64,000 bases of DNA from Heterotrichella gracilis. Taxonomy: Eukaryota; Sar; Xanthophyceae; Tribonematales; Xanthonemataceae. Position 1 is the stretch's first letter, and each line of letters starts with the position of its first letter. Below, piece by piece: positions 4,212-58,929 of this stretch. Location of the stretch: contig JAULBX010007996.1 of assembly GCA_032358255.1 (NCBI GenBank), positions 1-64,000 of the forward strand, written 5' to 3'. The position numbers were made by a program, and so were the translations under genes. The notes under the pieces are model-generated. The model saw nothing but the letters and a program-made list of their open reading frames with translations. It had not been told where the DNA came from and ran no database searches.

Positions 4212-7200
4212 ATGGCGCTCACCAGCAGCCTTCGTGGCATTCACTCCCGTGTCACCCCCTTTGTCTCTTCCCTCGCCAGGCAACGCACATCCACCCTAGG
4301 GGGACGGGGCACCCTGGGCCAAAACCCTAGGCTCGGGTGTGGGGTGCACACACCCTCGGCTGCCGAGGCAGTGGAGGTCAAGACGCAGCCAGACATTCTG
4401 GATGGGGTACCGCAGGAGCCGGCAGCAGCACGCAAGTGGGTACCCTAAACCCTAACCAGGGCATTCGAAACCCTAGTGCACGCGGACATGTATATGTGCA
4501 AGTGTGTGGGGGGGGAGGGAGGTTACAGCCATCTATCCCCTTGCATAGGCTTGTATGGTAACCCTTTGGTGTGGTTGTCACATGCACACGGCACAGGCGG
4601 GCTGCCACCCGTACCAAGTGGTGTGAACGCACGACTTCACAGTAAACCCTAAACCTGTGCAGCGGGCGGCGGGAGGATGGGACAAGTCTAAACCCTACAC
4701 CTTGAACAGTGAGAGATGGGCAGGTGCACACACAAGCATAATCCCTAGCCCTGAATGGTGGTAGTAAGGCAGCGAGGGGAATGCCAATACCCTAACCCCC
4801 ACTCCCCAACCCCCAGCCCCCCATACACATTTATGAATGCACCCCTCACTCCCCACCCTCCACCCCGCAGGCAGCGCGTGTTGTCTGGTGTGCAGCCCAC
4901 CGGCACACTCCACCTGGGAAACTACCTGGGGGCGATCCGCAACTGGGTCAAGCTGCAGGACCTGTATGGTGCGTCCACAACAGAAACCCTACTCACGCGC
5001 ATAAACCCTACACAGTGGGAGCACAAAAAATCCTAGTCATGGAGCCTAAACCCCACTCAGTGCGACGACCTGGGGGCTGTCCCATGCATGCAGGCCCCCT
5101 TGAACTACTAGATGCCACTTACCCCACCCAACGCCATGCAACCCGAACCCATCATCCTAAACCCCAAACCCGGCTTTTGGCAACATCCCAACCATCTCTC
5201 CACACCTAACAACCCCAAAAATACTTTTTCAACTATTTTTCAACTACTTCAATCCAGACACTACTTCTGCGTGGTTGACCTTCACGCCATCACTACCGTA
5301 TGCCCCACAAAGGGACCTGCAGGCATGATTGAACCTGTTTCCCACCACCACCATGCACCATTGCACCCACCCTCCCACACACCATGCCACATCACCCCAC
5401 TCAAACACCCCTTATACCAAATTAAACAACTGAAGTATCCCGCGGTTTCGGCAGACACCTACTTCTGCGTGGTTGACCTGCACGCCATCACCATGCCACA
5501 TGAACCCCGGGAGCTCCTGGGAGCCACCCGCAAATCCGCTGCGCTCTACCTGGCGTGTGGGATTGACCCCGACAAGTCAAGCGTATTTGTGCAGTCGCAT
5601 GTGCCTGCGCACAGGTAAGCCTATGGCCGCAGCACGGGGATGCATTCATTTCCTGATTGTGCTGCCGCGCCGCCAATTGGCATTTCAGGTTTGGTGGCCT
5701 CAGATCTTGCAAGATTAATACAGATTTGACACCTGTGGTGCAAGCTTGGCAATGTGCACCTTGCAAGGGCCGAACTGCTCGGCGCCGCACATGCAAGACT
5801 GCTAAGCTGGCTATGTTCCTGCCCACAGCGAGCTGACCTGGCTGCTTGGCTGCTACACGCCCATCGGTTGGCTGCGCAAGATGATCCAGTTCAAGGAGAA
5901 GAGCAAGAAGCAAGGGGAGGAGGTGGGCACGGGGCTGCTCACGTACCCAGTGCTCATGGCGGCGGACATCCTGCTGTACCAGGTGGGTGCTGGGGGAGGA
6001 GGAAATGGTATAAAGAGTGCCAGGATGGATTTTTGCTTGACTGCTAATCCGGTGTATTACTGGAATGCCGTGGGTGAGGATTGGCGGCAACCTGGAGCTA
6101 TCTAGGGACATGGCAGACCACATGAACCCCACACAAAACCCGACCAAAACCCTACTGTGGATTGGCCCCCAAACCAAATCTGATGCCTACCACAATTCAT
6201 CACCCCCAACTGCCTAAACCTAGACCCAAATATCATGTATACTCCCGCCATTATTCAGACCGACCTGGTGCCAGTGGGTGAGGACCAGCGGCAGCACCTG
6301 GAGCTATCCAGGGACATCGCGGACCGCATGAACTTCCTGTTTGGAGGCAAGAAGTGGAAGAAGCTGGGCGGCAGGGGAGGGCGCATTTTCAAGGTGCCAG
6401 AGGCATTCATCCCCCCAGCAGGGGCGCGCGTCATGTCACTCACGGTAGGGGCACAAGGGAGGGGCTGCGGATTGCTTGATCCCGGTGGTAGTGCCCAGTC
6501 TGGGGTCCACATGGCAATGGCATTGCATCTTCTGCAAAGTCAGAGATAACCTGGATCATTTAGCAGGGCTTTGTATCACTTAACATGCGAAATTGCCCCC
6601 ACCACTTTACCCCTCAGGACCGCACCAGCAAAATGTCCCAGTCTGCCCCACACACTATCACTCAGTTGAGTGTTTACCACAACACCCTAAAACCCTGCCA
6701 CTAAACCCCACCACCCCAACCCCCATGACGGCACCAGCAAGATATCCCAGTCTGCCTCACACACCAACACTCGACTGCAATACCCTAAAACCCTGCCACT
6801 AAACCCCACCACCCCACTACCCAGGACAGCACCATCAATACCGCGATACCCTAAAACCCTGCCACTAAACCCCACCATCCACCCCTCAGGACGGCACCAG
6901 CAAGATGTCCAAGTCCGCTGAGTCAGACCTGTCGCGCATCAACCTGCTGGACACACCCGATGAAATTATGAACAAGATCAAGCGGGCAAAGGTGGGGACA
7001 GGCTTGGTGGGAAACGGGGAGGGACCATGTGACCGCTGCTTTTGCTGGGTCAGCCAATTGCACACTGGGGTGGGATAGCTGGTGCATGGGGATTTGTATG
7101 GAGATTTGCCTGGGCATTTGCATGGGGACTTGCATGGAGGGTTTGCATGGGTATTTGCAATAGCTGGCACATCTGCATGGGGGTTTGCAGTAGTTGGCAC

Positions 7201-58929: not shown

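Follow-up and report, generated by a model that had tools for sequence, protein, structure and literature searches.

Partial copies of exon edges in the introns of three genes from the alga Heterotrichella gracilis

Why would introns hold diverged pieces of the exons that border them, and why would each piece lie on one side of its exon only? Both questions are raised by the window analyzed here, a stretch of 64,000 nucleotides from the xanthophycean alga Heterotrichella gracilis (contig JAULBX010007996.1). A first-pass annotation had described about 30 such copies in or beside three of its genes, and had found no named class of element to fit them.

Gene models and exon-edge copies

Gene models were built with our own spliced-gene DP, for which an intron penalty and masking of the copies were needed to obtain clean models. 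The self-trained DP run without an intron penalty returned many spurious mini-exons, and a multi-gene DP over the entire window merged genes; regional DP was used in its place. The TrpRS gene (4212..8047, + strand; Pfam PF00579, E=7.8e-78) was modeled with eight exons (4212-4435, 4871-4968, 5455-5614, 5829-5982, 6259-6444, 6890-6991, 7309-7404, 7811-8047), as was a coiled-coil gene (26567..30842, + strand; 26567-26627, 27024-27094, 27584-27721, 28319-28441, 29025-29180, 29582-29706, 30103-30277, 30657-30842), from which a DP-called exon at 27871-27948 was taken out by hand as a copy. The coiled-coil protein had no match in a Pfam search and a weak PDB match to the flagellar protein FAP112 (E=0.08). 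The third gene (38570..58929, − strand, 39 exons) encodes an acetyl-CoA carboxylase (ACCase) that matches yeast and human ACC chains; in the alignment listed, similarity to yeast ACC ran uninterrupted at the sites beside exons 8, 10, and 13. No relative of the ACCase gene was found in one viral-contig scan. Together, the three genes have 52 introns. Outside them, a transposase-like gene was noted by eye at 71-3154 (− strand; no Pfam match at 0.001).

Each exon was aligned to its adjacent introns by Smith-Waterman, and matches scoring at least 36 were retained. This yielded 21 copies on 18 exon edges (6 copies in TrpRS, 5 in the coiled-coil gene, and 10 in ACCase), with a copied exon part of 29-103 nt (median 43) and 77-97% identity to the exon (median 90). 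Matches at this score occurred in 18 of 104 adjacent exon-intron pairs, compared with 0/104 in antisense, 2/765 for distant introns (2-12 places off within the same gene), and 0/520 for order-2 shuffles; at a score of at least 30, the same sets gave 23, 0, 5, and 2. A blastn-short screen patterned on PMC12954441 (dust off, at least 20 nt, sense strand) returned 20 proximal and 10 distal matches, of which 15 and 0, respectively, reached at least 42.1 bits, and no match was seen in 10 shuffles. These controls confirm that the exon-edge copies are real and, in the window, exceed chance. Counting six more that were below threshold or at a stop codon (self-alignment, by eye), the total is about 27, compared with the original estimate of about 30; 21 are above threshold.

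All TrpRS copies are of 5' edges and lie on the + strand. The copy of exon 3 (5261..5293) is 97% identical over 33 nt, with a BLAST match that reaches 5255 with CAG and a 1-nt gap (intron test p=0.096), and that of exon 5 (6066..6127, 85%) has frame-breaking indels and a missing acceptor AG. Exon 6 is represented twice, at 6618..6646 with an acceptor, as part of an array with telomere-like units, and at 6727..6755, where intron homology is kept and the AG is missing. Both copies of exon 8 (7500..7531 and 7708..7739, each 94%) carry the acceptor, and the second keeps intron homology. In the coiled-coil gene (+ strand), the 3' edge of exon 3 recurs with its donor at 27907..27948, which the gene finder took for an exon, and again, more diverged, at 28000..28042 (77%, with a stop in the exon's frame). 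An array of about three copies of the exon 4 3' edge with donor (28484..28722, period 81-86) fell below the score threshold. Exon 5 has two 5' edge copies with acceptor at offsets of 103-114 (28803..28954), the nearer of which keeps intron homology, and a 3' edge copy with donor and frame-breaking indels (29306..29395, 79%); a 5' edge copy of exon 7 lies at 29963..30007 (82%).

The ACCase copies, all on the − strand, include 5' edges with acceptor from exon 10 (53793..53852, 95%, with a telomere-like spacer and intron homology kept), exon 13 (52042..52143, 90%, two 1-nt indels), exon 29 (43853..43908, 84%), and exon 30 (43462..43499, 89%). Copies of 3' edges come from exon 8 (54480..54548, 91%, with donor), exon 18 (49205..49289, exon side 49396-49480, 93%, with likeness ending 2 nt past the donor), exon 24 (45957..46025, 88%, spacer with TTTAGGG-like units), exon 33 (41668..41701, 91%), and exon 34 (41164..41202, 90%), the last two with telomere-like spacers. 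The DP called copies as exons at 54480-54551, 49205-49240, 43467-43499, and 27871-27948, which is a hazard for annotation.

Tandem spacing of 85-110 bp, which had been given as frequent, applies to a minority: the offset from the exon edge was 78-114 bp in 6 of the 21 copies and 142-328 bp in the remaining 15, and two arrays had a period of 81-114 bp. When the window was aligned to itself (no more than 1500 bp apart, score at least 50), 29 direct and 3 inverted repeats were recovered. By coordinates, all 24 direct repeats within the three genes involve exon-edge copies; the other five comprise two near 32.7 kb, inside an intron, and three at 37.1-37.4 kb, inside a minisatellite. The former region (32650-32851, in a fourth gene) holds purely intronic direct repeats at offsets of 77-120 bp with TTTAGGG-like units between them, an intron-only counterpart of the exon-edge copies, and the minisatellite (37116-37366) has units of 14-50 bp. 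Two dispersed repeat pairs (31928-32153/36610-36847 and 35841-36116/37428-37704) are 66-68% identical and are possibly decayed mobile elements. A 40-nt inverted match (92.5%) links an ACCase intron (44721-44760) to a distant site (60795-60834).

The first-pass annotation had also reported that other genes in the window lack copies, and this was borne out. None was found in the 16 introns (5,423 bp) of six control genes, where about 6 would be expected at the three-gene rate; these gene models are less certain, with a Pfam match missing for three of the six. No exon-edge copies were found in the neighboring genes identified by Pfam as a nucleotide-sugar transporter (8619-9892, − strand), a DUF1990 protein (10820-12291, − strand), and a sulfotransferase (13288-14579, + strand). 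The contrast between genes goes with G- and C-runs at intron edges, described below.

Side rule, splice signals, and decay of the copies

Every copy was on the expected side. The 13 copies of 5' edges all lie upstream of their exon and the 8 copies of 3' edges all lie downstream, with none on the wrong side, as had been claimed. In 20 of 21 cases the source lay no more than 10 nt from the near edge of the exon, compared with 2.2 expected and a maximum of 10 in 200,000 simulations; the lone exception is a weak ACCase exon 22 copy (47397..47426, − strand, 90% over 30 nt), whose source begins 41 nt inside the 5' edge. That the copies carry the splice site proved usual and not strict: a splice dinucleotide was found at the exact homologous position in 13 copies and no more than 3 nt off in 5 more, and was missing in 3. 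One further copy (30947..30983, + strand, 85% by self-alignment) spans the end of the last coding exon of the coiled-coil gene, its stop codon, and the start of the 3' flank (source 30830-30870), with no splice site involved. Its position over a stop codon shows that copying does not depend on a splice site.

The side rule follows from duplication that straddles junctions combined with selection for an intact protein. Were a straddled acceptor duplicated, the copy joined to the full exon would have to be the one that is spliced, and the spare would end up upstream; for a straddled donor, the mirror case would leave the spare downstream. Such a duplication would be tolerated, as the copy on the whole exon would keep a working splice site while the intronic spare diverged. 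On this account, the side rule is a filter effect, and neither a targeting rule nor a special element is needed to account for it.

Differences between copies and exons, by codon position 1/2/3, numbered 25/23/61 (109 in total, 57 synonymous and 52 amino-acid-changing), and 11 of the 13 indels were frame-breaking, with 2 being multiples of three. At least one amino-acid change was present in 17 of the 21 copies, a frame-breaking indel in 5, and a stop in 1 (indel or stop, 6/21). Given the 52 amino-acid changes and the 11 frame-breaking indels, the copies as a group are not kept as coding sequence, and many are young or short enough to remain open. The synonymous share (0.52, 57/109) was above the 0.38 of a neutral simulation (P=0.002), a suggestive result given that copies within one array are not independent; it could mean that duplication took place between alleles that had already diverged, that the copies evolve more slowly, or that the assembly had an effect. 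The ACCase exon 18 copy at 49205-49289, in which 6/6 differences are synonymous, is unlike most other copies.

An assembly origin, in which contigs that overlap but derive from two diverged haplotypes or gene copies were linked unmerged and left a partial second exon edge, would account for this synonymous excess and for pairs that resemble diverged coding copies with unalignable introns, such as that of ACCase exon 18. We regard it as improbable: the multi-copy arrays, the five pairs that share intron sequence, the telomere-like spacers, the amino-acid changes in 17 of 21 copies, the frame breaks or stops in 6, and the lack of any N in the window all speak against it. Still less probable, in our judgment, is that the copies are selected as alternative or decoy exon ends. 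Exactly placed splice dinucleotides in 13 of 21 copies, the synonymous excess, a stop in one copy only, and frame-breaking indels in just five would suit such a role, yet nearly half of the differences (52/109) alter an amino acid and most copies (17/21) are affected, all are partial exons, and the stop-codon copy has no splice role.

Intron homology, telomere-like DNA, and G- and C-runs

If the duplicated unit were a plain tandem one of the offset length, the intron beside the exon and that beside the copy should match. With other splice flanks as the control, intron homology was significant in 5 of 21 pairs (TrpRS exon 6 twice, TrpRS exon 8 once, coiled-coil exon 5, and ACCase exon 10). A looser test (z of at least 2.5 against shuffles, anchored or local score) found it in 8 of 21, adding both coiled-coil exon 3 copies, coiled-coil exon 7, and ACCase exon 22 and losing one TrpRS exon 6 copy. 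The 16 pairs in which homology was not significant include copies of 93-97% identity, and likeness ended 2-3 nt past the splice site in TrpRS exon 3, the farther TrpRS exon 8 copy, and ACCase exon 18. Some intron likeness is hidden by small gaps; at ACCase exon 34, for example, it resumes by eye after a 10-nt gap. Because intron homology was not significant in these 16 pairs, a plain tandem unit of the offset length does not suit them, and duplication flanking an inserted filler fits better. The proposal of tandem duplication of junction-straddling segments therefore stands as to the straddling, and not as a plain tandem process for all pairs.

A copy-spacer-exon geometry with a spacer of about 80-165 bp was found in 10 of the 21 pairs, as would be left by insertion of an introner-like mobile element with long target-site duplications. 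Introner elements place a similar insert in many introns, and were rejected for the window: in all-against-all comparison of the spacers and the 52 introns, the alignments listed were telomere-like or G/C-rich tracts. Within the window, the spacers have no common family beyond such tracts, and arrays are present without a constant insert, leaving a mobile element highly improbable.

Telomeric 6-mers covered 401 of 2142 spacer positions (18.7%) and 1088 of 15713 positions of other intron (6.9%; permutation p=0.0002). Since spacers lie near junctions by definition, this enrichment is confounded with a general one at intron edges, where telomere-like coverage in the three genes was 13.1% compared with 5.8% in intron middles (p=0.0005); the same held for the 34 introns without copies (11.5% versus 4.9%, p=0.0005). 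Coverage was 1.5% in 14 introns of five control genes, with the telomere-rich gene near 33 kb left out. Telomere heptamers numbered 44 in the introns of the three genes, compared with 6.2 expected and a maximum of 13 in 100 order-2 simulations, and 6 (1.2 expected) at 8.1-26.5 kb. Their density at 31.2-38.4 kb (1.39 per kb) is like that in the three genes (1.30-1.62), and the gene there had no exon-edge copies that we could find and intron-only repeats instead. The association of copies with CCCTAAA/TTTAGGG runs thus holds by count, but such units also occur without exon-edge copies, and their presence in that setting near 31-38 kb makes the filler step less secure. Within 60 nt of acceptors, all full heptamers read CCCTAAA (13, with no TTTAGGG), whereas both orientations occur within 60 nt of donors (12:11); because of this bias, selection of the units as branch points may contribute to their presence near acceptors.

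At the intron edges of the three genes, G-runs follow the donor and C-runs precede the acceptor. The median G4Hunter-like edge score was 1.6, compared with 0.64 in the six control genes (p=5e-12; edges within one gene are not independent), and exon GC was 0.63-0.655, compared with 0.53-0.60 in five control genes. The G/C-run score was equal at edges with and without copies (p=0.997), and G4 strength was accordingly rejected as a predictor of which edge bears a copy.

Junctions may themselves be hot spots. Five intron-only repeat families (scores 34-64) were found in the 52 introns, compared with 18 edges with copies; entries for TrpRS intron 5 and for coiled-coil intron 4, labeled intron-only by the script, were reassigned to exon-edge arrays. 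Simulated random placement with equal decay gave 1.0-2.8 detected intron-only repeats per junction copy, against which five families are too few (P 0.006 and 3e-7). The outcome depends on the assumed decay of introns: at twofold decay, P was 0.082 and 0.00035, and at three- to fourfold, 0.052 to 0.85, so that hot spots at junctions are possible. These numbers bear on the principal competing explanation, ordinary random tandem duplication throughout the gene followed by purifying selection, with no role for junctions, telomere repeats, or G-runs. The filter alone would then give the side rule, the scarcity of intron-only repeats would be non-significant under three- to fourfold faster decay of introns than of copies, and most pairs that keep intron homology do show greater divergence in their intron part than in their exon part, as expected when both intron sides are free to change. 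We nonetheless think this explanation rather unlikely, in that equal decay leaves too few intron-only families and neither the telomere-like filler nor the contrast between genes is predicted.

The explanation that we favor, with a little better than even confidence, is that the copies are scars of small local duplications at exon edges that arose through repair, included telomere-like filler, and were then sorted by selection. A local duplication would copy some 30-100 bp of an exon edge into the neighboring intron, usually with its splice signal and sometimes with more intron. We infer that the process could start when DNA breaks, or replication stalls, at the G-run next to the donor or the C-run next to the acceptor, immediately within the intron, that repair there by fill-in or template slippage would yield the duplication, and that the filler separating the two copies may consist of telomere-like repeats that are added or captured.

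Likeness to known systems

Three known systems resemble the copies in part. Intron gain by AGGT tandem duplication leaves copies at the ends of the new intron, beside the opposite splice site; it likewise duplicates exon sequence near splice sites, but the algal copies lie inside the intron, offset by 78-328 bp from the edge of the exon, and most have their own splice signal. Introner elements, which the first-pass annotation had set apart, also tie insertions to introns and differ from the copies in that no insert family is common to the 52 introns or the spacers of the window. It had likewise set ordinary exon duplication apart, and none of the 21 copies spans a whole exon with both splice sites. 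Interstitial telomeric sequences, which are inserted at repaired breaks in mammals, where 6/130 rodent loci and 4/25 primate loci show duplication in the data drawn on here (Nergadze et al. 2007, PMC2246262), are similar in having telomere-repeat units inside chromosomes and, at a minority of loci, target-site duplication; the algal units occur well beyond chance (the 44 heptamers above). They differ in that the algal units are short, degenerate, and concentrated at intron edges, and that what is duplicated in the alga is the edge of an exon. A literature search for telomere repeats in introns of Chlorophyta found no paper matching all terms.

The claim that no named class fits did not survive comparison with exon stuttering, which fits closely. 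Exon stuttering is reported to affect 115 genes and 236 introns in chicken, 190 of the introns on dot chromosomes, and consists of lateral exon parts, splice sites included, that recur as copies in the neighboring introns (Hron et al. 2026, PMC12954441). There, the copied source is at the exon border, within 1 base in more than 90% of cases in chicken; in the alga, it was no more than 1 nt from the border in 13/21 copies by gapped alignment and 8/20 by blastn-short, and no more than 10 nt in 20/21 (gapped). The two cases share a partial copy of a lateral piece of exon that lies, together with its donor or acceptor, in the neighboring intron and in direct orientation, an untouched exon, GC-rich genes, and a similar median exon part (36 bp in the chicken data cited, 43 here). 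They differ in copy number (median 4 and up to 44 in the bird data cited, one to about three in the alga) and in that the bird introns are described as heavily repetitive and length-polymorphic, with extensive intron-length variation within species, whereas the alga has few purely intronic repeats. Telomere-like DNA lies beside copies in the alga, and in the text of PMC12954441 drawn on here, "telomer" occurs only for telomere-to-telomere assemblies. The host here is not a vertebrate, and the G- and C-runs are at intron edges of the affected genes and not of the control genes. No word in PMC12954441 starts with "plant" or "alga," and the terms "exon stuttering" and "sequence stuttering" were found in that paper alone in the literature searched.

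The algal copies resemble exon stuttering in appearance and probably also in how they arise. Repetitive introns with purely intronic expansions are among the three features stated for sequence stuttering (PMC12954441), and we have not filed the algal case as a member because the window has just five intron-only families in 52 introns. The same paper mentions GC-rich gerbil genes as data not shown, and its authors speculate there on replication stress from GC-rich or G4 DNA. A broader conjecture, which we consider doubtful, is that junctions flanked by G- and C-runs are break hot spots, that staggered breaks at such sites lead to duplication of 30-100 bp of the exon edge and are repaired with telomere repeats, either made by telomerase or captured, that introns would thereby grow from their edges, and that birds, gerbils, and this alga acquired such instability independently of one another.

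By this comparison, repair scars of a similar kind may accumulate in organisms that are only very remotely related. If true, a gene-internal instability so far reported in birds (with the gerbil case as data not shown) would extend to a distant lineage, and the alga would supply a sequence correlate, G- and C-runs at intron edges, together with a possible filler signature in the form of telomere-like repeats. Annotators are warned that several of the copies were called as exons by a gene finder. The question of mechanism would become testable by a genome-wide screen in one alga.
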